From positions 19,551,798 through 19,615,797 of the forward strand of contig CM055113.1 of assembly GCA_029204225.1 (NCBI GenBank): a stretch of DNA of 64,000 nucleotides, written 5' to 3'. Each line of letters starts with the position of its first letter. Within the stretch, counting starts at the first letter, position 1. Below, one piece after another: positions 18,800-60,304 of the stretch. The position numbers and the translations under genes are program-made. This DNA is from Diphasiastrum complanatum. Taxonomy: Eukaryota > Streptophyta > Lycopodiopsida > Lycopodiales > Lycopodiaceae. The notes under the pieces were generated by a model. That model was not told where the DNA came from and made no database searches. It worked only from the letters and a program-made list of their open reading frames with translations.

Positions 18800-20279
18800 T
18801 CAATTCTAGACACAAAATCCTAACAAGAACAATCATTAATTGAAGGTAGGTGTACTTTCTGGTTTCACACGTGTGAAACACTATCTGAGTACGGACTCCA
18901 ACCTGAAAATCAAGTACACATTGATAGAACCTCAAAAACATCAAAACAAATGTAGACAAATGGAGGGAATCACTCAAAATTGCTTCCAAAACCAAGATTG
19001 GTGTCTCACATTGATTATGGCCAAATAAGCCTCTATATATACACTTTTGGAGCTTGAGGTACTGATCATGCATCAGATCTCACACGTGTGAGGATGCCTT
19101 GTCACCATCATGCAATTTGACACTTGGATCAAAACTTTCCATGTTGGGCATTTTTGGTCTATTTTCCTACTATATGGAGATCTTCATGGAAATCTTCTAG
19201 AAGCAAAAACTAGCCTACTTCAGCTATTTCCACACGTGTGAGTTGTCCTCTACACATGGGATGTGACACCTATTCAAAATATTTGGCTCATGCAATCATT
19301 AGATTGGTGCCATGTGTCATATCTCTAGAAAAGTAGTTTTGGGCCATTTTAGCCACTAGAACTTGAATTAAATCATATGTACAACATACATGATTATGGT
19401 ACATGAAAAGTACACTAGTTTCACACGTGGGAACAGGCTCCACACATGTGTGTCTATCCTATATACAATATTTTTGGCCTCTACCAAGCTTTTTTTTGCA
19501 TTTTTCACAATATTGTTATGACCTAGCTAACTAAAATTAGTAAACCACCAACTTGAGGAATCTAGATGAGATTAGATGGTTGCTTAAGCATGACCAAACA
19601 CAACTCCGAGGAAGATTTATAGCTCAAGTAGAAATTAGTGCTCTTATAGTGGTGGACATCATGTGCAAGAGTGGACTAGCAAAAGTGTGCAAGAGTTTGT
19701 GGCTTATATAGTAGGGATTGACATTAAGTTGAATACTGATAGTCATTGTATACAAGATTGTGAGTCCATTAGGTCAACCCAAGACATTAGGTGAGCATCA
19801 GAGGTGCTCCAAATTCTCCCAATAACTTCATGCACATGGCCAAATAAAAAAAATTGAAATCCATGTAACTTAGCTCTTCAAAACTGAAAATAAGCTTTTT
19901 TCAACAAAATTGTAATTTGGCATCGGGGGCAGCTTGCTAGCACATCATTTTGTCTGTAGTTTAGTATGTAGCTCATTAAATAGTATAAATTTTTCACCAT
20001 GGCTCCTATTGAGACAGTTTTGGTATCATTGAAAAGCACTCGTTGAAAGCTTTTGAATGACACCTTAGATGGCTTAGTTTTGAGCAAACATCAAACATAT
20101 GCAATAATGAAGTTGTTGTCCATACAAAAATAGTAAGTTACTGTATTTCACACATGTGGATCTGCATATCAACAAAACAATGCATTCTACACACAAGATT
20201 GCAAGATATCATCAATATAATGCACCAATGGATAGATGAACCCAAGAGAATAGATCAAACCAGTTGACAATTTCTCATA
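18800..20279 (-). repeat. LTR-like region including the 3' LTR of relic E
   Basis: The right edge (TTGACAATTTCTCATA, ending 20279) matches the right edge of the D LTR (TTGACAATTTTTCACA, ending 27580), and both are followed by CTCCCTCTTCAACTAG. To the left are several G-box palindromes: 18863-18878, 19081-19090, 19231-19240 and a variant at 19422-19431. There is also CTATATATACAC near 19031. It may hold more than one LTR. The left boundary was not determined and 18.8 kb is only where LTR-like motifs begin. Confidence 0.5.
18863..18878. promoter_or_regulatory. 16-bp G-box palindrome TTTCACACGTGTGAAA
   Basis: A perfect palindrome with CACGTG core, followed 10 bp later by GTACGGAC (CCGTAC on the other strand). 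CACGTG is the established plant G-box recognised by bHLH and bZIP factors. Function here is inferred from motif recurrence in LTRs. Confidence 0.55.
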
Positions 20280-20354
20280 CTCCCTCTTCAACTAGTTTTA
20301 GCATAGACTTTGAGAATACTCCATGTGAAGTCCTATGCTTTGTAAACAAGTATC
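20280..20354 (-). pseudogene. Relic E: last codons of pol, left of insertion B
   Basis: The sequence after the LTR edge parallels the D pol end (purine tract GAAGAGGGAG on the minus strand, then codons for a LVEEGV-like tail). It is interrupted at GTATC (20350-20354), which is repeated at 38521-38525 where the same pol frame resumes. It is therefore the left half of the target site of B. Confidence 0.8.
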
Positions 20355-20616
20355 AGTTAGAATTAAAGTAGAATCATTGTGCTACTGTACTGTGGGTTCT
20401 ATCAGTTGATAAGGATCAGTTGGCCTCGCCACGAGGCAAGTCGACGGGACACGCAGCAACCTGGGTCATGCATGGGTTGCCTGAGTGAACAACTATATGT
20501 ATAGTGTAATTTTGTTTGGAGAATTTAATTGCTTTGTGAGCTTGCTAGTGAGAGTGTTTTCTGTTTGTGTTACTGTGTAGCATGATCTGTGTTCCTGTGC
20601 AAAGCAAATTCTAAGT
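20355..20616 (+). repeat. 5' LTR of B (262 bp)
   Basis: It starts AGTTAGAATT and ends AATTCTAAGT, immediately followed by the primer-binding site. The two ends are nearly inverted copies, but the terminal bases are AG...GT, not TG...CA, in both LTRs. It aligns with 38247-38520 with several substitutions and a 12-bp length difference near the ACACGC phrase. Confidence 0.88.
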
Positions 20617-22646: not shown

Positions 22647-23509
22647 TGTTGAAAATTGTCACTTCTCACTTGACATTGGTTCATGTAAATATTGATCAAA
22701 CATTAGAATATGTTGATGATATGATTTCACACGTGTGGAGCATGTTCCCATGTGTGAAAGGATGTACTTTTCATGTTTGTATATATCCAAATTGATTTTG
22801 TATCATTCTAGTTAGTGTGAACATGAAATGACTAGTTTTTAGTCAAGTTGACTAGTCACCTACAAATTAGCTTTTCCTTGCATGTGCATGAGTAAATGCT
22901 CCCACATGGCAAGTGGATGTTCACATGTGTGTATAGAGTACTAGAAGATAAGAGTTGACCATTTTCCTTAGATCCTATTTTGTAGGGAATATTCCTATAT
23001 TCTAGGAGACTAGCTTTTTGGATTTTAGTCATATTCTAGAAGGTCAACTATTGGATAAGGATCAAGGATGGATCAAATGGATAGATATGAGTGATGTGGC
23101 ACTCTTCACACGTGTGAAGGCCTGCTGGACTGTACCAGACTCATGGATGTACTTGATCCATAAAAGGATCATCATTTTTGCTAAGAAAATTGATGAGACT
23201 TTTGCACTCTACACTTTTGTGAGATTTCTAGTCATTTGTCTTGTGATTTTTATGCATGATTGCTATCTAGTATCATTGTACTTGTTGTTTCAGGTGCAGT
23301 CCGTACAGTGGACAGTACTCCACACGTGTGAAGCCGCTCTCACTAAAAAATGATGTGTTGATCCATTGCTCTTGCTTAAATCCAAGTGTAGTGAATCTAG
23401 ATCAAGATCTAATGTGTAGAACTTGATAGATTCATTGATTAAGCAACCAATAACTCTCTATGATTGTAAAGTACAATCATTATTGTCCTAAAAACTGTAA
23501 AATTTATCA
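22647..23509 (+). repeat. 5' LTR of C (863 bp)
   Basis: TGTTGAAAATTG...AATTTATCA, with TG...CA ends. It contains CACACGTGTG at 22728, 23107 and 23321 and GTCCGTACAGTGG at 23299. Frames such as 23018-23353 lie wholly in the LTR and recur at 34465, so they are not separate genes. Confidence 0.96.
23107..23116. promoter_or_regulatory. G-box palindrome in C 5' LTR
   Basis: CACACGTGTG within TTCACACGTGTGAA. Further exact copies lie at 22728-22737 and 23321-23330 in the same LTR and at 23673-23682 in the leader. The 3' LTR repeats the set at 34046, 34425 and 34639. Confidence 0.55.
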
Positions 23510-23521
23510 TGGTATCATAGC
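23510..23521 (+). promoter_or_regulatory. Primer-binding site of C
   Basis: TGGTATCATAGC follows the LTR without a gap, matching the plant tRNA-iMet type except for CAT in place of CAG. A leader of about 580 bp follows before gag, with one more G-box palindrome (23673-23682). Confidence 0.8.
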
Positions 23522-24104
23522 TAAGTAAGAGAGTGATCATTGAATCATAAATCTTGTAAAGATCATTGGCAAAATTTGTTTTTTGGCCAATACTAGTGAG
23601 GGCGAGTTCTTCTAGAGTGATAGCTTGTAATCATTTGGATCAAAACGACTTGGAGGCTGTGTATGTACTTTTCACACGTGTGAAACCGTACAGCAACTTT
23701 CAATTCAAGTTACTTTGTGTTTTTTGGTCCCAAAATCACAATACTAGTTCATTTTTGGTGCTTTTTGAAGCATAGTATTGATCTAGATTCATTCTAACTA
23801 ATGCCTATGACCAAATAGTGTTTTGGATCATTGAAGCATTTCTTTTTAGAGTCTAAGATCAGATCTAAGAGGCTGATTTGTTCAGATCCTTAGTTGAAGT
23901 GAAATCTCTAAGAAAAGTGTAAAGCAATTTTTTTTGTGAGAGTGAAAGCTAGAAATTTTTGGTAAGATCTTTGAGTATCATTCAAGCTTGTGTGTTAGTT
24001 TGATAGAGACAAGCCTATAGGCATTCTAGTAAGCTTTAGGCCACTTCATAGATCTTTTAAAATTCAAAAATCTTTGTGATTTTTAAAAGAGCATTCATTC
24101 TAAA

Positions 24105-26927
24105 ATGTCATCCATGGGTGGATATTTGATGGAACCAAGTGAGAGACTCACTTCCACAAATTATTCCATTTGGAAAGTGAGAATGGAATCACTCCTAGTG
24201 ATCCATGATCTATATGACATAGTTCAAGGAGTAGAGGAAGAGCCTCAAACTCCCCAAGAACAAGCCAAATACAAGAAGAGAGCAAGATTAGCTCTACATT
24301 GCATAAAGTTAAATGTATGCAATGACCTCTTGAAAGAGGTGTCTTCTTGTACCTCATCCAAAGAGGCTTGGGATTCATTAAAGAGCATTTATGAATCCAA
24401 CAATACTTCAAGAATCCTCATGCTAAGAAATCAAGTTTTCCAAAGCATGAAAGGAAGTGGAGAGAGTGGACAAGAGTATGTTCTTAGGATCAAATCTCTT
24501 AACAAGGAGTTAAGTGCAATAGGAGAGAAGATCCAAGATCAAGAACTAGTACAAATCATTTTGAATGGTCTAAGTGATGAGTTTACCAACTTAGTCCAAT
24601 CATTTGCCATTCAAGACTCTCTTCCATCCATTGAAAAGTTGCACAATGTTCTTGTGGCCGAGGAGAGTAGGCTTCTACACCTCAAGACAAGAATGGATAG
24701 CATGTCACTTAATGGAGGAGAGGAGAAAGCTAACTTTACATCTAAAGGCAAGAAAAAGCAAAATCCATTCAAGAAAAATCAAGGCAAGGAGGCCGAGATG
24801 AAGAATGGAGGATCTACCTCCAAAGGCAAAGTGAAGAACAAGGCAAAACTAAAGTGTTTCTTTTGTGGAAAGAAAGGACACTTTGCCTCAGAATGCTACT
24901 TGAAGAAGAATCAACAAGCCAAAGGAGATCAAGGGAACATTGCTCAAGAGGAAGAATATGAGGATGGATTCAACACATCCTTAATGGTTGCATCTACACC
25001 AACTTCAAGTCAAGACACATGGTGGATAGATAGTGGGGCTAGTTCCCACATGTCCTTTAACAAGCATTATTTTTCTACTCTTCTATCTTGTAATGACTCT
25101 AAGAAGTCAATATACACTGCTAGTGATCAAGCATGCAAGATAGATGGCATAGGATCTATACCTCTTTGTTTAGGCACATCTAAAAGGATAGATCTAGATA
25201 ATGTTTTGTATGTTCCTACCATTTCAAGAAACTTGCTTAGTGTAGGACAATTAATGGACAATGGACTAGATGTACATTTCAAGAATGGAGTTTGTTCCAT
25301 CTTGAAAAATGATAAGTGCATAGCTAGTGGCATTAAGCAAGGTAGACTTTTCAAGTTGGATGCTAATGTTGCAAGTGAAAGTGTGAACTTGGCTAGGGAG
25401 GAGCTAACTCAAGTGGAGCTTTGGCATAAGAGATTAGGCCATCCTAATCTTCAATCTATGGAGTCAATGGCAAGCAAGGAACTAGCTCTCGGCCTACCAA
25501 GAGCTTTCAAGAAGTGTGGAAAAATGTGTGAGGCATGTGGCCTTGCAAAGTCACACAAATCTTCTTACAAGAAATCTTCATCAAGATCTCTCTCTCCCTT
25601 GGATCTCATACATTCTGATGTACATAGTTTTTCACATGCAAGTAATGGAGGTGCCTTGATGTATGTAACTTTTATAGATGATTGTACTAGATTCACATGG
25701 ATTGAGTTACTATCAAAGAAAAATCTTGTTTATGAAGCTTTCATTAAGTTCAAGTCTCTAGTAGAGAAACAACTTAGTACTTCTATCAAAGCACTAAGAT
25801 GTGATAATGGAGGAGAGTACACCTCCAATAAAATGAAAGACTTTTGTGAGATCAATGGTATTAAGTTACAATACACTTGTTCCTACACCCCTCAACAAAA
25901 TGGGGTGGCCGAGAGGAAAAATAGGAGTCTATGTGAGTGTGCAAAGTCCTTGAGGCTTGATGCATCACTTCCCATCTCATTTTGGGGAGAAGCCATAACA
26001 TGTGCTAATTATTTGTGTAATAGACTTCCTAGTAGTGCTATAGATGGGATCTCACCTTATCAAGCCTTGTTTGATAAGAAACCCAATGTAAAATATTTTA
26101 AGATCTTTGGATGTACTTGTTATGTACACATTCCTTTGGAGACTAGAAGGAAAGAAGATGCTACCTCCTTCAAAGGAATCTTTGTTGGCTATGGAGAAAA
26201 TAGCAAGGGATATAGGATATATGATCCTACATCCAAGAAAGTAAAGGTAAGCAAGGATGTACTTTTTGATGAGTCACAATTTGCTAAGAGCTTGTCAAAT
26301 GGATCTAACCCATTGTGCATTGAAGATCTTGACAAATCCGAGGAGGATCTTGACAAACCCGAGGAGGATCATGACAAACCCGAGGATGGAGATTTGGATC
26401 CAAGTCAAAAGGGGCCAAGAAGATCATCAAGGAGCAAGGCCGAGCCCTCAAGGCTTACCTATGTGGACAAGGGAAAGCAAAAGGAAGGCTCTACATCTTC
26501 TACCTCTTACTCTTTTTTAGCTACATTGATTGAAGAACCATCATCTTTTGAAGAAGCATGTAAATCTAAAGTTTGGAGAGATGCAATGCAAGTAGAGTAT
26601 GATGCATTAGAAGAAAATCATACTTGGAATCTTGTAAATCTTCCAAGAGGAAAGAAACCACTTGCATGTAAGTGGATTTATAGAATTAAGTACAATCAAG
26701 ATGGATCTATTAGTAAATACAAAGCTAGGCTTGTTGCTAAGGGATTTCTTCAAATAAAAGGATTGGATTATGAAGAAACATTTGCACCTGTAGCTAAGCT
26801 TGTAACTATTAGATTAATCATTTGCATTGCTACTTTGTTCAAATGGGATCTCTACCAAATGGATGTGACAAATGCCTTCTTGAATGGCTTCTTAGAAGAG
26901 GAAATCTACATGATGCAACCCGAGGGC
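24105..26927 (+). CDS. C gag-pol, N-terminal part (gag, PR, INT, RT start)
   Basis: The ATG at 24105 starts MSSMGGYLMEPSERLTS, the usual copia gag N-terminus. Gag (UBN2 region) covers roughly residues 50-190. The knuckle is C251-X2-C254-X4-H259-X4-C264. The protease motif WWIDSGASSHM lies near 305. Integrase has WHKRLGH near 438, HSDVH near 504, CDNGGEY near 565 and VAERKN downstream. The RT start includes GCKWIYR-like [17 protein letters not shown] and DVTNAFLNG. No stop or frameshift is seen in 941 codons. At 26928 the frame enters the LTR of D and stops at 26955-26957. The remainder is at 32794-33951 in the same frame. As it stands the element can make at most a truncated polyprotein lacking YVDD and RNase H. 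Confidence 0.95.
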
Positions 26928-27130
26928 TGTGAAAAACTCAGATCCAAAAGATGCTAAAGTTTCATAAAGATCTTGGCCATGGAAGTTATGCACATCTAGA
27001 TTGAAAAAATGATAGAAATTGTGATGTTAAGCATACTAAACATCAACTAAACATCAAGATCTGATCATAAGCTTCCACAAACAGAAACTTGCTGTCCCTG
27101 TCCGTACTTCAGAGCCTACAACCTGCATTT

Positions 27131-27140
27131 CACACGTGTG
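27131..27140. promoter_or_regulatory. G-box palindrome in D LTR
   Basis: CACACGTGTG within TTTCACACGTGTGAAG, about 30 bp after GTCCGTACTT on the plus strand. An identical copy lies at 32339-32348 in the other LTR. Confidence 0.55.
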
Positions 27141-27287
27141 AAGCCATAGCAACAAAGAAATCACAATTCTAGTGGCTAGAATGCAAGATATGAACAAAAA
27201 AGTGAGAGAGAAGAAGATGGATCTTCAAAGAGCATAACATTCATTCAATAGAATGAAAATGAGATGTGTACATACTCGTGGAGATGG

Positions 27288-27297
27288 CTATTTATAG
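27288..27297 (-). promoter_or_regulatory. TATA box in D 3' LTR
   Basis: CTATAAATAG on the minus strand, in the element's orientation; the copy in the 5' LTR is at 32496-32505, where it would drive gag-pol. Confidence 0.5.
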
Positions 27298-27575
27298 CAG
27301 CCATAGTGCCTCTTGGCCACTTGTCTTATGATAGGCTAAAATTGGGGTCCAATAGGATTCACCCATATACCTAGAAATTTGGTCAAATAGGAATGCACCA
27401 AATTATGAGCCAATAGAAGAGCTCCACACTCGACCTCCTCTAATTAATGTGACCTCAAAAGTAGTGTACACATACTTTGGGCCTCTACATACATGTATGA
27501 ACCTATCTCTAACTTTTATTTGGCCATAGGCCTACAAAATCTCAAGTTAGGAAAATACTACTAGTTGACAATTTT

Positions 27576-30500
27576 TCACACTCCCTCTTCAACTAGTTTT
27601 AGCATAGATTTAGAAAGTACACCAAGACTTGTTCTATGCTTGAAAAATAAGTCCTTTCCCAATGCTTTGGTAAAGATATCAGCCACACATTCCTTTGATG
27701 GGACATGTTCAAGCTTGATCTCTTTTGCCAACACTTGTTCTCTCACAAAATGGTAAGCCACCTCGATATGTTTGCTCCTTGCATGGAAAACCGGATTGCT
27801 TGCTAGACTTTGGGCTGAAAGGTTGTCACAAAAGATGATTGGACTCTCTGAAAAATCCAGCAAGTGAAGCTCCATAATCATCCTCTTGATCCACACCATC
27901 TCCTTTGTGCATGATGTCAAAGCTTTGTACTCGGCCTCACTAGAAGAAAGTGATATAGTTGCTTGTTTCTTCGACATCCATGAGATAGCTCCATCACCTA
28001 TGAAAATAGCATGTGCATTTATGGATTTTCTATCCATAAGGTCTCTTGCAAAATCTGAATCTGAAAAACCAAATAAGTTAGGTGATGATCCTCTATAAAC
28101 AATGCCAAAATCTTTTGTTCCCGAGATGTATCTCAAGATCCTCTTTCCTAGTTTCCAATGTTCTATGCTAGGATCTTGCATGAATTGGCTTAATCTACCA
28201 ACACAATAAGATAAATCAGGTCTTGTGATGGTTAGATATATAAGAGAACCTATTAGCTTCCTATAGAGAGTAATGTCCTCGAAGGATCTTTCATTACCTC
28301 TTATAGTTAGCTTTACATGTGATTCCATAGGTGTATCAATAGGATTTGCATCTACCATATGAAATCTATTGAGAATAGAAATAGCATACTTCTCTTGTGA
28401 AATAAAAGTGATTTGAGAAGTTCTAATTACTTCTATTCCTAAGATATAGCTCAAAAGACCAAGATCATGCACTTCAAATTCCTTTTTTAGTGCTTTCTTG
28501 ATATCTTCTATATCTTCCTTGTTCCCTCCACTTAAAATAATGTCATCCACATAAATTAGAAGGATTGTAACATCATTAGCACTAATTCTAAAGTAAAGTG
28601 AATGATCATACTCACTCATAGTGAAGTTTTGAGAAAGTAGAAAAGAGTTAAGCCTAGCATACCAACTCCTTGGTGCTTGCTTAAGACCATACAAACTTTT
28701 TTGTAGAAAACACACATGATTAGGCTTGCTATGAGAAACATAGCTCTCGGGTTGCTCCATGTAGACTTCCTCTTCAAGATCACCATTCAAGAAAGCATTA
28801 GAAATGTCTAATTGCCAAAGATCCCATCCATAAAGAGTTGCAAGGGAAATGATTACTCTTATGCTCACCATCTTTGCCACGGGTGCAAAGGTTTCCTCAT
28901 AGTCAATGCCATGCTCTTGAGCATAACCTTTAGCCACCAACCTTGCCTTCAACTTGTTGATAGATCCATCTTGATTTGTCTTTACCTTGAAGATCCATTT
29001 GCATCCAATTGCACTTTTGCCCTTTGGAAGCTCCACCAATCTCCATGTGTTGTTCTTCATAAGTGCTTCAAACTCAAGATCCATTGCTTGGATCCATTCC
29101 TCTTTTTGCCTTGCTTCATCTACACATGAAGGTACATCAAAAGAAGTTAGGAAAGCATAGTTGGATCCATCCACCACTTGCTTACCTTTGCCATCATAAG
29201 TGAGCCTTGAGGGTTTCACTTTATGCCTTGGAGTTCTCCTTGGAATTTGACTTGAAGAGGCTTCTTCAACATCCACATCCAATGTGTCATCAACTCCATT
29301 GTCATCAAGCACATTAGTTGCAACAACACCATCATCACTTGAAACAACTTTTGGAATGTTACTTTCATCAAAAATGACATCCCTACTTGTGAACACTTTC
29401 TTGATTGAAGGAACATAAATCCTATATGCTTTGCTTACTTCACTATAACCAACAAAAATGCCCTTTCTTGAAGATGGATCCTCCTTAGTTTCATCATCAA
29501 GAGTAATGTTGAAGTAGCAAATGCATCCAAAAGTTCTTAGAAACTTGACATTAGGCTTCATACCAAACAAAGCTTCAAAAGGGGTTTTTCCTTCCAATAC
29601 AACACTTGGCCATCTATTGCATAGGAAATTTGCACACAACAAAGCATCACTCCAAAAAGGTTTAGGAAGATTAGCATTCAATCTCATTGCCTTTGCACTC
29701 TCACACAAGGTTCTATTCTTCCTCTCGGCCACTCCATTTTGTTGTGGTGTTCTTGGACATGTGTACTCCCTCTTGATCCCATGCTCATCACAAAAGGCTT
29801 TGAATTTGTTAGAAATGTATTCACCACCATTGTCGCTCCTCAAGCATTTGATTTTGGTTGTAAATTGAGTCTCAATAGCAACTTTGAACTTGACAAACAC
29901 ATCAAACACCTCATCCTTGCTCTTTAGTAGATAAACCCAACAAAATCTACTAAAATCATCAATGAAAGTTACATACATCTTAGCACCTCCATTGCTAATT
30001 GTAGTAACACCATGAATATCCGAATGCAAGAGAGAAAAAGGCATCTTAGATCTAGATATAGATCTAGTATATGGCAATCTATGTGATTTAGACAAAGCAC
30101 ATTCTTCACAAACATGATTCAAGCAAGTAAGAGACTTGGGAAGTCCCCTTACTACCTCCTTTTTGGCTATTACCTCCAAGGCCTTGTAGTTGAGATGTCC
30201 CATCCTTTTATGCCATACCTCTTGAATTGACATTTGTTCATTTGCCATGCATCCAACTTGGTTAGCAACAACACATGCATCAAGCTTGAACAATTTCCCT
30301 TGCCTTTTCCCTTTTGCAATGATACTACACCCCTTTTTGATCAAGCAAGCATCACCATCAAACTCAACTTTGAATCCTTTGTCAAGCATTTGGCTTACAC
30401 TAAGTAAGTTCTTGGTAATGGATGGAATGAGCAAAACATCTTTCAATTCTATATTCCTATTTGTAGAAAGTGAAATAGGAATTGTGCCAATCCCCTTGAT

Positions 30501-31526
30501 TGTACACTCACCATCATTTGCGGTATAGATTACCTTCCTATCACCATCAAATGCTATTAAAGATGAAAAATACTCTTTATGATATGTCATATGAGAAGTG
30601 GCTCCACTATCAATCCACCAAGGATCAATGTCTCCATGATTAGCCAACAAGCAAGATGACATAACAAAAGCATCATTTGAAAGAAGCTCATCCCCACCCT
30701 CATCAATAGTTAGATTGGTTTGCTTTTCCCCTTGATCCCTCTTTTTCTTAAAACAATCACTAGCAAAATGCCCTTTGACTCCACAATAGAAACATTTTAG
30801 CTTAGATCTATCCTTCTTTTTGCCAAAAGTAGAGTGCTCACCTTGGTCTTGCCCTTTAGACCAATTGCTTTTACCTTTGCCCTTGAACTTGCCTTTAGAG
30901 AACATTGCCTCCTCTTCTCCTCCTTGAGATGTAGAAGATGCTCCCACTCTTGTTTGCAACCTGAATTCTTCAGCCAACAAGACCTCTTGCAAGTCTCCAA
31001 CACTTGGTAAACATTTTTGGATAGCATAACTTTGAACAAGATTAGCATGATCATCCAACAAGCCATTGAGAATCACTTGAACAAGCTCCTCATTATTTAT
31101 GCCATCATTAATGCATGCTAACTCATCATTCAATGCTTTAACTCTCAAAACAAAAGCATGTCCATTCTCACTCTTCTTTTGCATACAAGAAAAGATTTGC
31201 CTTCTTAAAGTCAACACTCTAGAAGTAGACTTGGATTCATAAACCTTCTTCAAGGCTTCCCAAGCTTCACTAGATGATGTGCACTTACCAACCTCTTTGA
31301 TAAGCTCATTTGTCACATTCATCTTGATCATGTGAAGGGCTTTCTTTGCCCTCTTGTCATACCTCAATTGTTCTTGAGGTGCCAAAGGTCTCTCCTCCAC
31401 ACCTACAACAATATCCATCAACTCATTCATCTCAAGCAAAGACTCCATCCTTACTTTCCAAGTAGAATAGTTGAGGGAGGTAAGCCTATCATTGCTTTCC
31501 AACATGTAGCCTCCATTTGTAGCCAT
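27576..31526 (-). CDS. D gag-pol polyprotein, 1316 residues, intact
   Basis: A single frame starts at ATG 31526 (MATNGGYMLESNDRL). Gag occupies about residues 1-265, with the knuckle C245-X2-C248-X4-H253-X4-C258. The protease has D306-S307-G308. The integrase zinc module is H439, H444, C473 and C476. The catalytic triad is D503, D565, E601, with 35 residues between the last two as in copia integrases. The RT has D907 (LDISNAFLNG) and Y992-V-D-D995. RNase H has D1156, E1197, D1234 and the KHIEVAYHFVRE tail. No stop or frameshift is present. The stop TGA (27576-27578) is supplied by the first bases of the LTR, so the polypurine tract is inside the coding frame. One oddity is R1161 in FARDLMD, where relatives have FAGD. 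Gag and pol are in one frame, as in many plant copia elements. Confidence 0.97.
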   Translation of the reverse strand: MATNGGYMLESNDRLTSLNYSTWKVRMESLLEMNELMDIVVGVEERPLAPQEQLRYDKRAKKALHMIKMNVTNELIKEVGKCTSSSEAWEALKKVYESKSTSRVLTLRRQIFSCMQKKSENGHAFVLRVKALNDELACINDGINNEELVQVILNGLLDDHANLVQSYAIQKCLPSVGDLQEVLLAEEFRLQTRVGASSTSQGGEEEAMFSKGKFKGKGKSNWSKGQDQGEHSTFGKKKDRSKLKCFYCGVKGHFASDCFKKKRDQGEKQTNLTIDEGGDELLSNDAFVMSSCLLANHGDIDPWWIDSGATSHMTYHKEYFSSLIAFDGDRKVIYTANDGECTIKGIGTIPISLSTNRNIELKDVLLIPSITKNLLSVSQMLDKGFKVEFDGDACLIKKGCSIIAKGKRQGKLFKLDACVVANQVGCMANEQMSIQEVWHKRMGHLNYKALEVIAKKEVVRGLPKSLTCLNHVCEECALSKSHRLPYTRSISRSKMPFSLLHSDIHGVTTISNGGAKMYVTFIDDFSRFCWVYLLKSKDEVFDVFVKFKVAIETQFTTKIKCLRSDNGGEYISNKFKAFCDEHGIKREYTCPRTPQQNGVAERKNRTLCESAKAMRLNANLPKPFWSDALLCANFLCNRWPSVVLEGKTPFEALFGMKPNVKFLRTFGCICYFNITLDDETKEDPSSRKGIFVGYSEVSKAYRIYVPSIKKVFTSRDVIFDESNIPKVVSSDDGVVATNVLDDNGVDDTLDVDVEEASSSQIPRRTPRHKVKPSRLTYDGKGKQVVDGSNYAFLTSFDVPSCVDEARQKEEWIQAMDLEFEALMKNNTWRLVELPKGKSAIGCKWIFKVKTNQDGSINKLKARLVAKGYAQEHGIDYEETFAPVAKMVSIRVIISLATLYGWDLWQLDISNAFLNGDLEEEVYMEQPESYVSHSKPNHVCFLQKSLYGLKQAPRSWYARLNSFLLSQNFTMSEYDHSLYFRISANDVTILLIYVDDIILSGGNKEDIEDIKKALKKEFEVHDLGLLSYILGIEVIRTSQITFISQEKYAISILNRFHMVDANPIDTPMESHVKLTIRGNERSFEDITLYRKLIGSLIYLTITRPDLSYCVGRLSQFMQDPSIEHWKLGKRILRYISGTKDFGIVYRGSSPNLFGFSDSDFARDLMDRKSINAHAIFIGDGAISWMSKKQATISLSSSEAEYKALTSCTKEMVWIKRMIMELHLLDFSESPIIFCDNLSAQSLASNPVFHARSKHIEVAYHFVREQVLAKEIKLEHVPSKECVADIFTKALGKDLFFKHRTSLGVLSKSMLKLVEEGV

Positions 31527-32123
31527 GTTGCAATGATTGATCTCTGATCTTTGACCTGTTCCAATGCACTAAGCACTCTCTTGAATCAACAAATGAAACA
31601 CAAGAAGAAATCACAAAGATTTGGAACCTAAAACCTTACTTTTTCTCTCTTTTCCTCACTTTTTCCTCAATTTTAGCCACTAGTTTTATGATTTCTTGAT
31701 CAAACCAAGACCAAACCTCAATATACTTGCTTTTCCCTCACTCCTAAGATTGAAATACACTCTTGAATCATTCAGCAAACTGAAAATCAGAGGGTTACAT
31801 CAATTTTGAAGTTTTTGACATGAAGAAGCAAGAAATTGAATCAAAAAACTATATGCTAGAATGGAAAACTAATAGGATCTTGTTGGATCTTGCATCTCCC
31901 TCTTTCCAAAACAAATTTTGTCTCCTTATTCTGATAAGTACAGAGGGAATTCGCCCTACTTCAATTGAAATGCATACAAATGATGTTTTGATCACAAAGA
32001 TCCAATTTCTACACATAAATCAACAAGATTTTTAGCTAGAAACTTGATTGGAATGCTACAAAAGCAAACTCGCCCACAAATCTCTTCTAAATCTGGCAAA
32101 ACCTGCACATTTGGCCGCCTAAT
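31527..32123 (-). other. 5' leader of D
   Basis: About 600 bp between primer-binding site and the gag start. It carries no gene; short frames here are chance. It is expected to hold RNA dimerisation and packaging signals, which I cannot identify by eye. Confidence 0.6.
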
Positions 32124-32135
32124 GCTCTGATACCA
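32124..32135 (-). promoter_or_regulatory. Primer-binding site of D
   Basis: GCTCTGATACCA on the plus strand is TGGTATCAGAGC on the minus strand, the classic plant copia tRNA-iMet site, directly abutting the 5' LTR. Confidence 0.92.
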
Positions 32136-32788
32136 TGTGAAAAACTCAGATCCAAAAGATGCTAAAGTTTCATAAAGATCTTGGCCATGGAAGTTATGCA
32201 CATCTAGATTGAAAAAATGATAGAAATTGTGATGTTAAGCATACTAAACATCAACTAAACATCAAGATCTGATCATAAGCTTCCACAAACAGAAACTTGC
32301 TGTCCCTGTCCGTACTTCAGAGCCTACAACCTGCATTTCACACGTGTGAAGCCATAGCAACAAAGAAATCACAATTCTAGTGGCTAGAATGCAAGATATG
32401 AACAAAAAAGTGAGAGAGAAGAAGATGGATCTTCAAAGAGCATAACATTCATTCAATAGAATGAAAATGAGATGTGTACATACTCGTGGAGATGGCTATT
32501 TATAGCAGCCATAGTGCCTCTTGGCCACTTGTCTTATGATAGGCTAAAATTGGGGTCCAATAGGATTCACCCATATACCTAGAAATTTGGTCAAATAGGA
32601 ATGCACCAAATTATGAGCCAATAGAAGAGCTCCACACTCGACCTCCTCTAATTAATGTGACCTCAAAAGTAGTGTACACATACTTTGGGCCTCTACATAC
32701 ATGTATGAACCTATCTCTAACTTTTATTTGGCCATAGGCCTACAAAATCTCAAGTTAGGAAAATACTACTAGTTGACAATTTTTCACA
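32136..32788 (-). repeat. 5' LTR of D (653 bp)
   Basis: I found no difference from 26928-27580 on reading through. It contains the promoter TATA box (32496-32505, minus) and the palindrome at 32339-32348. It is followed by AGGGC, the second copy of the target duplication. Confidence 0.96.
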
Positions 32789-32793
32789 AGGGC

Positions 32794-33951
32794 TTCATCA
32801 AGATTGGTGAGGAGCAAAAGGTGTGCTACTTAAGGAAGAGCCTATATGGCTTGAAGCAAGCACCTAGAGCTTGGTACTCTAGGTTGCATGATTTTCTCTA
32901 TTCCCTTGGCTTTGTACTAAGTGCTTATGAACCTTCTTTATATTTCAAATGTAATGAAGGAAAGATCATCATTTTGGTTCTTTATGTTGATGACATCATT
33001 ATGACAGGAAATGATGATGATGGCATAGGCAAAGTAAAAGTTGACTTATCTAGTGAGTTCAAGATGGTAGATCTAGGCTTCCTAAAGTTTATACTTGGGA
33101 TAGAAGTGTCTAGAAGTAGCAATTGTACTTTCATAAGTCAATCTAAGTATGCTACTTCCATTCTTGAAAGATTTGGTATGAAAGATTGTAAGGGGATTGA
33201 CACCCCTATGGAGCATGTTGTGAAAGCAACTAATGAAGGTGATGAAGCATCCTTTGAGGACATCACTCTCTTTAGGAAGCTTATAGGCTCTCTAATCTAT
33301 TTAACCATCACTAGACCTGACTTAAGTTTTTGTGTAAGCAAGTTGAGTCAAAGTATGCAAGCTCCTTTAATTCATCATTGGAAAAGTGCCAAGAGAGTAC
33401 TTAGATATGTTTCTAGTACTAGATTTTTTGGTATACTTTATGAAGGATCTAACTTGCACTTGAGAGCCTACTCGGATTCAGATTTTGCAGGTGACAAGAT
33501 GGATAGGAAGTCCATTAGTGCATTTGCAACATTTCTTTGTGGAGGAGTGATATCTTGGCTTTCCAAAAAGCAAGATACAATCTCACTATCTTCTTGTGAA
33601 GCCGAGTACAAGGCATTGACTTCAACAACCAAAGAGCTCTTATGGCTAAGAAGACTCTTGATGGAACTACATGTGCTAGAGGCCGAGGAGATCCCTTACA
33701 TATTTTGTGACAATCAAGCTTTTCAACAAATTGCTTCAAATCCTATCTTCCATGCTAGAACAAAGCATATTGAGATAGCTCACCACTTTGTGAGGGAGAA
33801 GGTACAATCCAAGGAAGTGCAACTACATCATGTACCATCATCCGAATGCATAGCTGATATCTTAACCAAACCATTGTCCAAAGATCCATTTTTTAAGTTA
33901 AGATATGCTCTTGGAATTGTAGATAGATGTACACTAGATTTGCCAAGTTAG
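32794..33951 (+). CDS. C gag-pol, C-terminal part (RT, RNase H)
   Basis: It continues the frame cut at 26927. FIKIGEEQKVCYLRKSLYGL is followed by KQAPRAWYSRL, YVDDIIMTG near 32985, TRPDLSFCVSKLSQ, then RNase H with YSDSDFAGDKMDRKS near 33475, SSCEAEYKAL near 33595, FCDNQA near 33705 and KHIEIAHHFVREKV near 33765, ending TKPLSKDPFF and a stop at 33949-33951. There are 385 codons without a break. It has no start of its own; an upstream in-frame ATG at 32773 lies in the D LTR and is not meaningful. The purine tract GAAGTGAGGAGGAG (33951-33964) follows directly. Confidence 0.94.
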   Translation, partial: FIKIGEEQKVCYLRKSLYGLKQAPRAWYSRLHDFLYSLGFVLSAYEPSLYFKCNEGKIIILVLYVDDIIMTGNDDDGIGKVKVDLSSEFKMVDLGFLKFILGIEVSRSSNCTFISQSKYATSILERFGMKDCKGIDTPMEHVVKATNEGDEASFEDITLFRKLIGSLIYLTITRPDLSFCVSKLSQSMQAPLIHHWKSAKRVLRYVSSTRFFGILYEGSNLHLRAYSDSDFAGDKMDRKSISAFATFLCGGVISWLSKKQDTISLSSCEAEYKALTSTTKELLWLRRLLMELHVLEAEEIPYIFCDNQAFQQIASNPIFHARTKHIEIAHHFVREKVQSKEVQLHHVPSSECIADILTKPLSKDPFFKLRYALGIVDRCTLDLPS

Positions 33952-33964
33952 AAGTGAGGAGGAG
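33951..33964 (+). promoter_or_regulatory. Polypurine tract of C
   Basis: GAAGTGAGGAGGAG immediately upstream of the 3' LTR is the expected plus-strand primer. Confidence 0.85.
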
Positions 33965-45744: not shown

Positions 45745-45760
45745 TAAAAAATAAAAAAAT

Positions 45761-46436
45761 TGCCTACATTGGCAAATCTAGCCATGTAGAATACTGTACA
45801 TTTTGTCAATATTTTTTGTTAGTCACATGAATGGCCAAAGTGCCACTTGTAAATTCACACCTAAAGTAGGCTACCATGAGTCAAGAAGAGTTGTTGTGTC
45901 CATTTGGTATTGATTCCTACTTTGTAGGATCTAGACCTTGATTTATGATGAGATTTGTACCTACCATGCACCTACCAAGCATGACTCTTGGATCTAGGCT
46001 ATGGTTTTCACATCAGGGCAAGAAAGTTGAGTCTACTTCCTTATTACATGCTTGATTTTCACCTAACTTGGCAAAGGAAGTGTCTTTTACTATGTATTCC
46101 CATTCTCCATAATGAGGAGATAGAAACTTTTTGGAGCCTCAAGGAGAAACTTGAGTTTTCTCTCTATGTATTGTGATTGCTTTTGATTCCAATGAAACCC
46201 AGCTTTGCACCTAACTCGATCTACAGGCCGTAATACAACCTCATTTCCACACGTGTGAAGTCGGGTTATAGTTTTTGATCAATGCTCTGATTGTCTCTAC
46301 TTGTTTTCTATCAAGCTGCTAAACTAGATCTTGTTTTCTGATGACTAGTATTTGATAGATTGTTTAACAAGCACACAATCAACCTTGTGGATCATTCAAA
46401 GATCCATTTATGGTCCTTAGTACTATACTTTTAACA
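45761..46436 (+). repeat. 5' LTR of element J
   Basis: TGCCTACATTGG...TACTTTTAACA, aligning to the 3' LTR of A over its length. The first 10 or so bases (TGTGAAAAAT in A) are altered here, so the true start may be 45745-45761. It contains GGCCGTAATAC and, about 20 bp later, CACACGTGTG (46248-46257). Confidence 0.85.
46248..46257. promoter_or_regulatory. G-box palindrome in J LTR
   Basis: CACACGTGTG followed by AAG. The equivalent position in A (near 4211) is degraded. A further copy lies at 46596-46605 in the J leader. Confidence 0.5.
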
Positions 46437-46448
46437 TGGTATCAGAGC
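46437..46448 (+). promoter_or_regulatory. Primer-binding site of J
   Basis: TGGTATCAGAGC directly after the LTR, a perfect match to the plant initiator tRNA type. A leader of about 620 bp follows. Confidence 0.92.
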
Positions 46449-47066
46449 CAAGTAGGCTACTAATTAGTGTTTGAAACTAATCCAATTTTAGCAGGTTTTG
46501 GTGTAAAAAGCTAGTACCGGAAGAGCGAGCTGGTATCTAGGTTTTGGTGAGGAGATTTGATCCCAAACTTTTTCAGGATCAAAATCCATATTTCTCACAC
46601 GTGTGGGCATCTCTGAACCAGCATTTAAAACCCCATAGTCATTGGATCACTGCAATTTCATCTGGTGTCAGTTTGATGTAATTTTTGGTGCAAATCCTAG
46701 GATAACCTACCAAGATCACTTGCCATTAATTAGTTATGAATTTGTTTCATGGTAACTGATTATCCTAGGCTGATTTCAAACCTTTTTAATGAGGAAACCA
46801 GGTCTAGAAAGTATATCATAGTGAAAGAGAGAGATAAAATTATTCTATTGTCCAAAAATAGCCAAGATTGGCAAGATTTGCTTGAGAGTAGTTTTCACTT
46901 CATCTTATCTTCATTCCAGCTTTGTGAGGGAGTGATAGAACTGTGATTACAAATCCATCTGTTGGATTAGAAGTCGACATTTGAGTGAAACACTGCAAGT
47001 TAGAAACCTTTGTGAGTTTCAAGTTCAAACAAATCTATATCTTGTGTGTAGAATTTCATTAGTAAG

Positions 47067-48889: not shown

Positions 48890-49623
48890 TTTCTGTATGA
48901 GAAATTTTAGTAATGATAAAAAATAGAGTTGAAAGGATGTTGCTTGCTATCTCAATCTAGGATCTAACACTAATGTTGATCCAACCTATGAAATCTAGCA
49001 ACAGATGTGAGAACAAATTCTCAACATAGAAAATCAATCTATCTTGAATTTGGATCTTGCTTTAGTCACAAAAGAGAAGCACATACAAGCAAGAAGTCTA
49101 TCTCTCCCACGAGTTTCAAAGTACTGATAAACTCTCTAGGAACTTACTTTCAACTCAAACACAGTAAGATGTGTGAAATGAGAAGTCTAAGACCTCTAAA
49201 CACCCACTTCTGATTGACAGTGAAAAATGATGAAATTGGTGAAAAAAACTGATGTGTGCTCACTTTGGCATATCCCACGAGTGAGTACTCTCTGAAATTC
49301 TTTGATTGCCTAAAACTCTTCTAAAAACAAATCAAATTGATATAGAAACAAGAGCAACACATTCTACTCTTCAATACCTATCCAACAAGCTATAGAACAT
49401 CAATTTTGGATCAAATCTTGAGAAGTAGCACACATTAATAAGGGCTGATTTCACACCTGTGAGCTCTCTGTCCGTACAGGGTTCCATTGGAGAAGATCAG
49501 GCTCTTATTGATCCACTTATAATTCTCATATGGCTTGTCTCTCAGCGAGTTCCAAATTTGAGTTCCTGCAAGCAAAAGCACCGCAGATTTGATGTATACA
49601 CCCTCACCTCTTCAAAGAATGAA
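48890..49623 (-). other. Leader of element I
   Basis: It lies between primer-binding site and gag. It contains a degraded palindrome CACACCTGTG (about 49452) followed by GTCCGTACAGG (about 49470). No gene is seen. Confidence 0.55.
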
Positions 49624-55160: not shown

Positions 55161-55817
55161 TGTTGATACGAACAAATTTGGCATAGATGGCAAATTATGC
55201 ATTTCCACTTGTAATGCCACTATTGAGCCAAAATAGAGTAAGAGGCTAAACTCGTGCCAATTAGAGTGTAGACAAGTGTAATGCTTTTGTTTGATGAATT
55301 CTAAGAGGTCCAATAGGATTTAGAGGTGGAACCATATGAGGTCCAATAGGAATTTGAGGTTTGCTTGAGAATAGTCCAATAGAATTAAGAGATGCATGGA
55401 TCAATGGTCCAATAGGATTAAGAGGTGACAAAGTGTGGTCCAATCATAGTTAAGCATAGTGGTAGCTCGTGGATCTACTAGTATCATTGTACTCCTCATT
55501 TTGGATCTAATTGATTTGGAGATTGTGTGGATTTTGAGTGTTTTTGGATTTCTAGCTTTCTCTCTCTACCCAAGAGCTCATGATGATTTTCTCTCTCTAC
55601 CTGAGGAGAGCAGCTTGTTTTTACTTAGAATAATTTTTGAATACTTCCCACATGTGTGAATGAGAGTTGGAAGTGATTGAATGCATGTAATAGTGTGTTT
55701 TTGCCATAGAATCAAAGGTAGATCTTGAATCTCAATCTAGTCTTGATCTTGGTGCATCTACACACTTAGGAGATCACAAGTACATGTTGTGGACACTCTA
55801 CACTTGTGAAATCTACA
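55161..55817 (+). repeat. Probable 5' LTR of K (about 657 bp)
   Basis: It starts TGTTGATACG and ends AATCTACA directly before the primer-binding site, giving TG...CA ends. It contains the 33-bp minisatellite (55307-55447). No second LTR of K lies in the window, so the start is inferred. Confidence 0.6.
55307..55447. repeat. 33-bp CCAAT minisatellite in K LTR
   Basis: Units headed GGTCCAATAGGATT begin at 55307, 55340, 55373, 55406 and 55437. The minus frame shows an 11-residue repeat (PLNPIGPL) as a by-product. Similar GTCCAATAGGATT phrases occur in the D LTR near 27346. Confidence 0.8.
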
Positions 55818-55830: not shown

Positions 55831-56376
55831 TACCTAAGGTTACCATGCATTTTGATCCATTTAAGTGAAAACTATTCATCAATCTTGAGCTAGAAATTGT
55901 CAAGATCCATTTTCCTAGCTATCTTGTTCAATTTTGGATCAAAAGAGATCAAAAGGACATTGATTGTGTCTTACCTTGTACTGTACGAAATTAGGTGCTC
56001 AGACACGTGTGAGGAACATCCAATTTTAGTTTGGAAGTTCTCTCTCATGCTTGATCCATTTATCTTGCTTGATAGCTTGTTTTGAAGCTATTTTTTTCTA
56101 GTTTTTGATGCAATTAGTTTCATTCCATTTGGTTGAGCCAATTAGAAGTTATAAGCTTTTGAAGAGGGTTAGGTAGGGCACCTAGACCTGGGTGAACACA
56201 TTTGGTTTGGTCAAGAGATTGTTTGGTTGATCCAAAATCACAGTTGAATGCTTACCAATCTCATCTCTATGTGATCTAGGCACTGTTTTGAGATCTTAGC
56301 CATTTTGTTTCATGCAATATTATTGTATTTGAGTCAAATTTGATTTCTTAGTGTACTTCACACGTACTAAGAGTGT

Positions 56377-59300
56377 TTGATCCTAGACAACAAAGTTGTT
56401 TTAAGCAAGTATGAACAAAGTCTCATCCAATATCTCAAACACTCTAGGGCTCTCCACTACATTATGATGAATGTCTCTAATGAGATATTGAGGGAGATAG
56501 GTACTTGTACAATAGCCAAAGAAGCTTGGGATTGTCTCAAGACTATCTATGAGGCTAAGAATACCTCTAGACTTCTCACTCTTAGGAATCAAATCTTTCA
56601 AAGTAGCCAAAAGAGTGATGAGAGTGCATCTAGTCATGTTTTGAGAGTAAAAGATATTCATAGATAACTTGCTTGTATTGGTGATTCCATCAATCAAAAC
56701 GAGCTAGTCCAAGTCATTCTCAATGGCTTGAGAAGTGAATTTGATAACCTTGTCCAATCCTATGCCATTAATGAGGAGCTACCAAGTTTGGAGGCTCTCC
56801 AAAGTGTGCTAATTTTAGAAGAATCAAGACTAGAGTACAAGCTCTTGAGGATGGACAAGCTTTCTCTCACTCATAATGATGGAAAAGTTGTCTTTGCCAA
56901 GGATAAGCACAAAGGGAGGAGCAAGAACCAGCATCAACAATCCTCAAGCAAGGACAAAGTCAAATCCAAAGACAAAGATGAGGAGGAAGATGATTCCTCT
57001 AATGTTTCGTCATCCAAGCTCAAGAAGAAGAAGATCAAGTGTTTTTATTGTGGCAAGAAAGGCCATTATGCCACAAGCAAACCAACATTACCAATGAGAA
57101 GACACTATTGCAAGTGATGGAGAGGGATCTCTTATGGTCTCTAGTTTCTCATCTACTCCTTTCAAGAAGGACGGCCTATGGTATATTGATAGTGGAGCCT
57201 CTTCACATATGTGTAGCTCCAAGGACTCTTTCTCTTCTATTGCACCTTATGATGGAGTCAATAAATCAATATACACTGCAAATGATTTTGAATGTCTTAT
57301 TGAAGGCATAGGCAACATTCCCTTGAAGCTTGCATCCTCTAAAGTTTTTTCTCTCTCTAAAGTTCTTTATGTACCTAAGCTTAATGAGAATCTTATTAGT
57401 GTTGGCCAATTGCTTGATAATGGCCTTGATGTAAAATTCAATGTGGATACTTGCACTATCAAGAAGAATGATGAGATACTTGCATTAGGATATAGATTTG
57501 GAGGAATATATAAAATAGATCCAAATGAGTATGTGAATGCTTGTAATTTTGCTCTTGTGAAAAAGCTCTCTATGGAGGAATTATGGCATAGGAGGTTGGG
57601 ACATCCCAACTACAAATCCATGCTCTCTATGATCAAAGAGGCCAAAGCTATTGGCTTGCCAAAGTCATTCTCCAAGAAGATCAAGTCTTGTGAGGCTTGT
57701 GCTATTGCTAAATCTCACAAAAAGCCATTTACAAGATCTTCTATCAAAAGCAAGCATCCTTTGGAGTTAATCCACTCTGATGTGCATTTCTCATCAACTA
57801 TAGGCAAGGGAGGAGCCACTTGTTTTGTTACTTTCATTGATGATCTCACAAGATTCACTTGGATATATCTTCTTGCTTCTAAATCTATGGTGTTTGATCA
57901 TTTCCTTATTTTCAAAGCTTATGTAGAGAAGCAATTTTCATTCAAGATTAAAGCTCTTAGAAGTGATGGAGGTGGTGAATATATCTCCAATAAATTTCAT
58001 GATTTTTGCTTGAAGGCATCAAAAGAGAGTTCTCTTGTGCCTACTCTCCATCTCAAAATGGAGTGGCCAAGAGAAAGAATAGATCTCTATGTGAATGTGC
58101 AAAATCTATGAGAATTGAGGCATCTTTGCCCAAAGATTTTTGGGGAGAAGCCATTGACTGCGCAAATTATCTTTGCAATAGGGTCCCACATATAGCTATT
58201 GGAGGAAAGTCACCATATGAAATCTTATATTTGAAGAAGCCTAAGGTTGATCACCTTAGAGTTTTTGGATGCATATGTTTTGCCCATATTCCCTTGGAAA
58301 CAAGGAAGAAGGAAGATCCTAGTGCATGCAAAGGGATCATGGTTGGATACTCATCCACCAAGAAGGCCTATAGAGTCTTTGTACTATCTACTTCTCAAGT
58401 TGTTGAAAGTGGAGATGTTGTCTTTCATGAAGATCAACACTCATCTTTTAAAGAGGCCGAGATCAAGAAGTCTATAGATGCATCACCAATTATTGATTTT
58501 GAAGACAATCATGATGTGATGGGGTCGAGATTTGAAGAAGACTCTACTCGGATTTTCTCTCCAAGAAGATCCATGAGAGATAGATTCGAGCCTAAGAGGC
58601 TCTCATACGTTGACAAAGGCAAACAAGTGGATCTTGATTCCACTAATTATGTTTTTTATGTCTCTCATGAAGAGCCAAAGAATGTACAAGAGGCACTCAA
58701 TACCAAGGAGTGGTATGATGCCTTGAAGCAAGAGTATGATGCATTGATCACCAACAATACTTGGGAGCTTGTGGATCCTCTATCCAACAAGCATGTGATT
58801 GGTTGCAAGTGGGTATTTCGGATCAAGTTCAGTCATGATGGCACCATCAACAAGTATAAAGCAAGATTATGTGCCAAAGGATTTGCTCAAATCCATGGCC
58901 TTCATTATGAGGAGACCTTTGCACCCGTTGCAAAGATGGTGACAAATTCTTATTTCTCTTGCTTGTTTCTTTAAGTGTAAGGTGTTCCAATTAGATGTAT
59001 TCAAATCTTTTCTAAATGATTATCTTGAGGAGGAGATCTATATGGAACAACCTCAAGGATTCATCAAGGATGAGTCCAAAGTGTGTTTGCTCTTCAAAAG
59101 TCTTTATGGACTCAAGCAAGCACCAAGATCATGGTATTCAAGACTTAATTTTTTTCTTATCTCACTAGGATTTACTCTTAGTGACTATGATCCTTCCATG
59201 TATCTAAAGTTTGTTGATAGCAATATTGTCATTCTTCTAATTTATGTTGATGACATTATTTTTTGTGGAAGTTGTATCAAGCTAGTTGATGAAACTAAGC

Positions 59301-59727
59301 TAGCACTTGGATGTGAGTTTAAAATGCAAGATCTAGGAGAGATACATTACATCCTAGGCCTAGAAATTGATTTTTATGAAAATCATGTCTTTATATGCCA
59401 ATCTAGATATGCTCACTCTATGCTGAAAAAATTCCATATGAAAAATTCTAAGAGCATAGATACTCCAATGGAGCAAATTGTAAAATATCCTAATAAAGGT
59501 GATGAAATATCCTTTGAGGACATCACACTTTTTAGTAGTCTTGTAGGCTCCTTGATTTGGCTTACCATTACTAGGCCCGATCTAAGTTTTTGTGTGCACA
59601 AATTGAGTCAATTTATGCAAGATCCTAAGATCCATCTTTGGAAGATGGCCAAGAGGATTCTAAGATATGTATCTTCATCTTGTGATTATGGTCTACTTTA
59701 TAAAAATGAAGATCTATCCATTGTTGG
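56377..59727 (+). pseudogene. Element K: copia gag-pol, cut by L
   Basis: Gag lacks its N-terminus and reads LHYIMMNVSNEILREIG, with a stop TAA at 56665-56667 and then NELVQVILNGLRSEF. The knuckle CFYCGKKGHYATS (57034-57075) loses its last Cys to a frameshift. Protease WYIDSGASSHMCS is near 57180, integrase WHRRLGHPN near 57590, HSDVHFSS near 57775 and SDGGGEYISNKF near 57965. A frameshift near 58005 leads to QNGVAKRKNRSL. RT has GCKWVFRIK near 58800, a frameshift near 58975, DVFKSFLNDY and YVDDIIFCG near 59250. RNase H stops at NEDLSIVG (59727), where the LTR of L begins. The rest of K is expected beyond the window. Confidence 0.92.
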
Positions 59728-60304
59728 TGCTGAATAAACACGTGTGGGATGCCCTACACATGTACTTTTGATCTCCTAAGCCCAATAATACCATAAAGAT
59801 CAGACTAGCATTGGTTGTCAATAGGAAAGCTGATCATACAAAACATAAGACTAAGCATAATAAATGCTTCAATTCGGCTAGAGAGAGAAAATAGAAAGTA
59901 CAAAACTTGTGAAGAGAGAGAGGGCACAAAGAGCTTGTCTCCAAATTTGCATTACACACAAATTTTATCATCTTCTCAATGCGAGTACATCACATATATA
60001 TAGATCCATGGACTCTTCTCCTACTTTGAGCTGAATTGGAGTTATGACTCCACCTCTCAAGCTATCTAGACTTATTCAAGCCACCTCACTATGTCTAATT
60101 GTGCCACCTAGTCTTTTCATGCATTAAATGTGGTAGGTGAAGTACAAATGGCAATTCCTACGGTAGCTCGAGTTTCTACTTCTACCTACCTTGAATATTT
60201 TATTCTAAGATGGGTCTTTACTAAGCCAAAAGAGCCTAATTCATCTTTGGCATTCTTAGGACCCCTACTCACAACATTAGATAGATTTTTTCAATATTTT
60301 GACA
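59728..60304 (-). repeat. 3' LTR of L (577 bp)
   Basis: On the plus strand it runs TGCTGAATAAAC...ATATTTTGACA; on the minus strand it starts TGTCAAAATATTG after TTTTTAGGAG. The left edge coincides exactly with the break in K's RNase H. It contains AACACGTGTGGG at 59737-59748, a partial form of the G-box palindrome. Confidence 0.78.

Follow-up and report, generated by a model that had tools for sequence, protein, structure and literature searches.

A palindromic decamer at set places in diverged copia retrotransposons of Diphasiastrum complanatum: a candidate protein-binding site

A 64,000-nucleotide stretch of the Diphasiastrum complanatum genome (GenBank assembly GCA_029204225.1, contig CM055113.1, positions 19,551,798 to 19,615,797 of the forward strand; hereafter the window) contains Ty1/copia retrotransposons, referred to here by letter, in which the ten-base palindrome CACACGTGTG, built on a CACGTG core, recurs. 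Why should one G-box palindrome be present in the long terminal repeats (LTRs) of families that otherwise differ? An earlier sequence-only reading had proposed that several families independently keep, or exchange, a common host-factor site. The decamer does look like such a site: it is probably a protein-binding DNA site, independent of orientation, that a copia lineage has conserved, whichever protein binds it, and its copies cluster at two set places, one in U5 and one in the leader. Published work is cited below by PMC number from excerpts of each paper.

Copies of the decamer

The window holds 14 exact copies of CACACGTGTG, against a mean of 0.00 over 100 dinucleotide shuffles. Copies were assigned to elements by self-BLAST, those of C through alignment to fetched 5' LTRs; six lie in the D LTRs, one in the D leader, two in the J LTRs, three in the C LTR, and one each in the LTR and leader of K. 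When the LTR pairs of D and J are collapsed, the 14 copies become 10 sites. Every copy (14/14) is in an LTR or leader, where nearly all had been claimed to be, and none, as claimed, is in pol, which was checked in the D and J pol frames. The list of positions in the sequence-only reading was also right, except that its first copy begins at 18866, the 18868 given being the start of the CACGTG core. The near-forms reported in A (LTR, 4212, two mismatches) and L (U5 at 55649 and leader at 56002, one mismatch each) were all found; in the stretch called I, the sole CACGTG (36295) falls within a stop-to-stop frame.

Since the window was picked for the motif, its share of pooled counts is biased. An unbiased set of 200 kb was used alongside it. 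Its twenty 10-kb stretches come from round positions along contigs C1-C20, which were taken with the motif ignored but were not randomly drawn. In these 200 kb the decamer has 9 copies and is the commonest palindromic decamer apart from TA repeats (the next has 5). The outer CA..TG is present on 9 of the 59 CACGTG words there, where approximately 0.4% would be expected from base composition. Genome-wide, CACACGTGTG occurs at 86,555 places in the 1.745 Gb of the window's own assembly, compared with 1,886 for the reversed decamer, which lacks CpG, a difference that if anything favours the control.

Window and unselected set together (264 kb) contain 23 copies of CACACGTGTG among the 64 ACGT-centred palindromic decamers, the next having 2. 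All 10-mers with at least 5 occurrences were also ranked by the number of dissimilar contexts over expectation. The low-complexity filter excluded the decamer itself, and the one-base-shifted ACACGTGTGA, standing in for it, ranked first with 23 contexts (59x), while primer-binding-site words reached 9 contexts (23x). The exact decamer was found in 18 contexts with ungapped flanks no more than 55% alike, several of these contexts coming from single elements. The decamer is far above chance, and the view that it is conserved beyond its surroundings was borne out. The companion statement, that the LTRs of C, D and J otherwise align poorly, held for D and J, which share short matches only, the best of them at the motif, but not for C and D, which have in common one stretch of 50 bp at 88% identity and another of 60 bp at 78%.

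Position relative to the primer-binding site

The U5 pattern, decamer-N(165-195)-TGGTATCA, was found at 5,626 places in the genome (2,786 + 2,840) and its reversed control at 0. The leader pattern, TGGTATCA-N(135-165)-decamer, was found at 3,055 places (1,538 + 1,517), with 2 for its control. Among the matches listed (about 100 for each pattern, all on contig C1), U5 match lengths were mostly 195-197, with a second group at 185-186, and leader match lengths mostly 169-174. In the collected sequences, the distance from the U5 site to the primer-binding site downstream is 178-180 nt for 11 of 15 rows (158, 168, 203 and 203 for the others). Likewise, 16 of 19 leader rows lie 151-158 nt after the primer-binding site (the others at 138 twice, which is the same place, and 178); as these rows were mostly retrieved by a pattern fixing the rough distance, this result describes clustering and not presence. 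The rows are partly relatives and form 6 U5 and 8 leader groups at 75% identity. Spacing in U3 was taken from 10 of the 11 rows called by script, window copy 19231 being left out because the script had assigned it to the wrong strand.

Presence was assessed on the 13 primer-binding sites in the 264 kb, one edge site having been excluded. The U5 interval holds the exact decamer at 5 of them and a one-mismatch form at 1; for the leader interval these numbers are 3 and 3. Counting either interval, a form within one mismatch is present at 8 of the 13 (5 of the 6 that belong to the window and 3 of the 7 from elsewhere); length-matched random segments reach such a match in 0.7% of cases.

Half of the 12 U5 copies, 6 in all (D, J, C, L032, L038 and L039; numbered handles denote collected sequences), have a TATA-type word 151-166 nt upstream of the site. 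Four further U5 copies (K, L037, L040 and L020) have only CTATGTA, a form added post hoc, 158-166 nt upstream, and no TATA-like word was found in the U5 copies of L043 and L022.

Elements carrying the decamer

Elements D and J each have an LTR pair, a tRNA-Met-type primer-binding site, and copia gag, integrase and RVT_2 domains, as expected of Ty1/copia. Their features are as follows.

22647..23509, plus strand: D 5' LTR, 863 bp; 3' copy at 33965-34827, 99.9% identical (self-BLAST)
22728..22737, plus strand: D U3 distal site, exact decamer; 3' LTR copy at 34046
22922..22931, plus strand: D U3 site decayed to CACATGTGTG by a CpG change; the relative L041 has the exact form
23107..23116, plus strand: D U3 promoter-proximal site, 42 bp ahead of TATA-like CATAAAAGG at 23159; 3' LTR copy at 34425
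23321..23330, plus strand: D U5 site, 179 nt before the primer-binding site; 3' LTR copy at 34639
23510..23521, plus strand: D primer-binding site TGGTATCATAGC
23673..23682, plus strand: D leader site, 155 nt after the primer-binding site, within TGTACTTTTCACACGTGTGAAACCGTACA
26928..27580, minus strand: J 3' LTR, 5' copy at 32136-32788, 100% identical; site copy at 27131; J is nested in D
32339..32348, minus strand: J U5 site, 203 nt before the J primer-binding site; companion GTAC on the opposite side compared with other U5 sites

The D primer-binding word is TATCATAGC, which differs by one base from TATCAGAGC. Approximately 20 bp beyond the D U3 distal site is a degraded second site, CCATGTGTG, whose counterpart in L041 is better preserved. 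J (26928-32788) sits in the reverse transcriptase region of D (22647-34827), and both insertions look recent because the J LTRs are identical and those of D are 99.9% identical over 863 bp.

The remaining sites and near-forms in the window belong to C, K, A, L and a further element on the minus strand.

18695..19509, minus strand: C LTR, 68-70% identity to the L038, L032 and L030 LTRs
18866..18875, minus strand: C U5 site, TATA-like box 164-166 nt upstream
19081..19090, minus strand: C U3 promoter-proximal site, 39 bp before a TATA-like box at 19041
19231..19240, minus strand: C U3 site, exact decamer
19422..19452, minus strand: C U3 distal pair CACACGTGGG / CACACATGTGTG, 19-21 bp apart, in the stretch common to C and D
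45755..46437, plus strand: K 5' LTR, of the same family as the A 3' LTR (3713-4401), 91% identical (self-BLAST)
46248..46257, plus strand: K U5 site, 179 nt before the primer-binding site; companion CCGTAA instead of CCGTAC
46596..46605, plus strand: K leader site, 151 nt after the primer-binding site
4212..4221, plus strand: A U5 site decayed to TACACGTGGG, 2 mismatches
55649..55658, plus strand: L U5 near-form CACATGTGTG; its start is 169 nt ahead of the primer-binding site (55818)
56002..56011, plus strand: L leader near-form GACACGTGTG, 176 nt after the primer-binding site
49452..49461, minus strand: leader near-form CACAGGTGTG, with the primer-binding site at 49635

Beside the C LTR, neither TGGTATCA nor a reverse transcriptase piece was seen. 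Tandem spacing of 20 bp was considered as proof of cooperative binding and set aside as weak: there are 519 such pairs genome-wide and 1 in the control, but most of the 50 pairs among the matches listed are of one family.

GTAC beside the palindrome

In the first set of sites, GTAC was present within 45 nt in 15 of 18 contexts, against a background of 0.18 (one near-end match excluded). In the 264 kb it ranks first of 136 tetramers near sites, in 10 of 14 contexts against a background of 0.20 (p 5.6e-5 uncorrected, approximately 0.008 corrected). A putative SBP/SPL-type core accompanies the palindrome above background; CCGTAC is named an SBP-box in the excerpt of PMC10165856. At the D U5 site, GTAC starts 6 and 18 nt upstream, and K has no GTAC at either of its sites. 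The arrangement GTAC-decamer-GTAC, with gaps of 2-12 nt, occurs at 1,652 places genome-wide and at 11 for the control.

Ancestry of the sites

All 15 LTR pairs compared exceeded single-base shuffles with z of at least 3.0, and among leader pairs five of six did so with z of at least 3.3, the K and L leaders giving 1.3. For group representatives, identity over the stretch between the site and the primer-binding site was 0.50-0.64 among 15 U5 pairs and 0.49-0.70 among 28 leader pairs, with 0.49-0.54 for shuffled sequence. Many family pairs reached 0.56-0.70, with a shuffled level of approximately 0.51; pairs involving J or L026 were near the shuffled level. Compared with J, the reverse transcriptase pieces from L014, L022, A, D and L show approximately 46-68% identity. 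A reverse transcriptase tree was rejected as proof of a single clade, as it had 11 rows (15 of 26 BLAST pieces, shorter than 100 aa or containing a stop, were left out) and 6 of its 8 inner branches were unresolved.

The leader and U5 of most families seem to share one origin, and the decamer has outlasted the rest of these regions. Because residual homology is combined with equal spacing across many family pairs, shared ancestry plus selection explains most of the sites, and the idea that families independently keep or exchange the site is not supported in the form in which it was put. Separate gain in every family was rejected in view of the residual homology. The extra U3 copies, and the module carried by J, are better candidates for separate moves.

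The clearest exception to common descent is J, with a U5 site 203 nt from its primer-binding site and none in the leader; it seems to carry its module inverted. In 80 comparisons among 21 sites hand-picked from the collected sequences, the right arm of the J site matched the U5 left arms of K, C and L040 (p approximately 0.004 each, 500 shuffles), while its left arm gave no match at p 0.02 or less. The orientation independence that had been expected from symmetry appears to be borne out by this one module, and an inverted module favours a function in DNA.

Alternative explanations

Plain inheritance with copy number would have an ancestral copia bear the decamer by chance and its descendants multiply, the decamer being functionless now. 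The families are indeed related, both in their reverse transcriptase pieces and in the many site-to-primer-binding-site pairs that exceed shuffled identity; a few large families dominate among the matches listed for the set places, and the CpG-decayed form CACACATGTG (either strand) is as frequent as the intact decamer in the unselected 200 kb (9 vs 9). We nevertheless consider this explanation unlikely, given that the exact decamer is found in 18 such dissimilar contexts, that C and D each have three exact copies per LTR in addition to decayed ones, that the module is inverted in J, and that the shifted decamer is in more dissimilar contexts than the primer-binding site. A palindrome acting in RNA, with U5 and leader copies pairing in genomic RNA for dimerisation, packaging or U5-leader pairing around the primer-binding site, is very improbable, although two self-complementary copies do flank the primer-binding site at near-constant spacing, some sites have GTAC arms on both sides (the 1,652 places), and the D leader forms a hairpin over the palindrome with the best z, -2.3. 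The flank pairs -1/+1 to -6/+6 at 13 leader and 12 U5 sites gave no significant covariation (lowest p 0.05, uncorrected; power is modest as the rows are partly related), which sets these sites apart from a retroviral-type dimerisation palindrome with its conserved stem-loop and covarying pairs. Of eight folded segments, two (the D and L043 leaders) close a full hairpin, and K U5 gives a bulged one with z -0.1. Other ACGT-centred palindromes, expected from compensating changes, are not enriched. Pairing of this kind was rejected as the principal explanation on account of the covariation, the inconsistent folds and the lack of other palindromes, and it leaves the U3 copies and the inverted J module unexplained.

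A generic plant G-box, bound by bHLH (PIF/MYC-type) or bZIP factors under light, jasmonate or abscisic acid (ABA), is a minority possibility. In its favour, the decamer has CACGTG as its core, predictions for Arabidopsis place SBP motifs together with bHLH ones (PMC13234004, in part), and the copia element Rider is known to have an element resembling the ABA-responsive element (ABRE) in its R region (PMC6762207, in part). Selection, however, extends to the outer CA..TG (the 9 of 59 given above), and TTCACGTGAA, GACACGTGTC and ATCACGTGAT total 4 copies in 264 kb. The ABRE-type G-box is CACGTGKC. The conserved unit here is the entire decamer, a "perfect" BIL1/BZR1 site and not an ABRE-type one, so the generic G-box and ABA assignment of the sequence-only reading appears doubtful. 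A cluster of ACACGTG-type words (GACACGTGTC, CACACGTGTC, CCCACGTGTC), 14-37 bp apart, was observed in L017 (8731-8883), and we take these words to be closer to ABRE than to the LTR decamer.

Several observations weigh against a conserved protein-binding site as the account of the decamer. Both constant places lie downstream of the presumed start, which is unusual for an activator. For five of the 13 primer-binding sites, neither place shows a form within one mismatch. J lacks a leader site, and L015, with a long copia frame, has no exact site within its 10 kb. The A copy has lost 2 of the 10 decamer bases even though its LTR is 91% identical to that of K. The inversion depends on one family and on about two independent matches, as K and L040 are related. 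In addition, the Arabidopsis model has SBP motifs co-occurring with bHLH and not with BZR or BES1 in the excerpt of PMC13234004, and a maize BZR1 study took CCGTAC as a neutral control motif (PMC10165856, in part); these two points weigh against BZR as the partner of GTAC.

Candidate host factor

BIL1/BZR1 binds C[G/A]CACGTG[C/T]G most strongly, CACACGTGTG included, and changes to outer or central bases weaken binding, according to the excerpt of PMC12668046. Because the entire decamer falls in this strongest published site class, a BZR/BES1 protein is the most likely identity of the factor, a proposal that we make tentatively and that overlaps with the bHLH alternative, since both can use one site. 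The host has 26 BES1_N matches (best 2e-42, some with stops or duplicated), and so offers candidate proteins; none was found in 14 control genomes. A bHLH factor acting with SBP would be the second choice.

A dimeric host transcription factor would bind the palindrome, perhaps with an SBP/SPL protein on GTAC as its partner, and the bound factor would switch LTR transcription, so that many families could answer one host signal. Brassinosteroid signalling may hold the elements down, with release when the signal falls and with bHLH factors competing for the G-box; repression is proposed because the perfect-site class is linked to brassinosteroid-downregulated genes. In its most extended form, the proposal would be that the copia lineage is wired to one hormone switch, with BZR/BES1, perhaps together with SBP on GTAC, reading tens of thousands of retrotransposed sites, brassinosteroid status gating the families jointly, and the dispersed sites serving as a genome-wide sink or as ready-made enhancers. 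In this extended form the proposal is speculative and rather unlikely.

Other features of the window

Two copia pol regions, at 56698-59727 (plus strand) and 60797-63825 (minus strand), are 77% identical over 3.1 kb and lie tail to tail. Tandem simple-repeat arrays are found at approximately 5139-5431, 7083-7389 and 16385-16585, with near-identical 150-base stretches at these three places, and imperfect repeats of GAGACTC/GAGTCTC-like words at 7543-7910.

Comparison with known systems

Host-factor sites in single LTR families are already known, but it would be unusual for many diverged families to keep one decamer at matching positions in U5 and leader. Such a case would make the control signal of a retrotransposon lineage readable from sequence and testable with one factor, and it bears on the spread of binding sites by retrotransposons through a large plant genome. 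No report of the decamer site in retrotransposons was found among the titles and abstract openings listed in capped searches of open-licence papers.

As a BIL1/BZR1-binding sequence, CACACGTGTG is among the "perfect" sites, but such sites are described, in the excerpt available, in promoters of brassinosteroid-downregulated genes (PMC12668046). Tomato Rider is similarly a copia element with hormone-linked elements in its LTR, including one in the R region, which is transcribed; it differs in having several element types in one family, with no lineage-wide palindrome described in the excerpt (PMC6762207). ONSEN/COPIA78, COPIA37 and TERESTRA also have clustered LTR sites for one host factor (HSFA2 at ONSEN) in several copia families. 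Both the type of site and the signal are different there, and induction by heat was measured in that work, whereas the present case is made from sequence (PMC5059998, in part).

The nearest precedent in kind is provided by the repeated palindromic motifs of Sireviruses, which are likewise repeated in copia LTRs, near-identical in families of very low homology otherwise, and suspected to be transcription-factor sites (PMC2829016, in part). Those motifs have a CGG-CCG core (Tnd-1 excepted), which CACACGTGTG lacks, and occur chiefly in the upper LTR half and ahead of env (same excerpt). Sirevirus motifs cluster upstream of the LTR TATA box; C and D do carry U3 copies, but the constant copies of the decamer described here, a site of the G-box/BZR type, are those of U5 and the leader.

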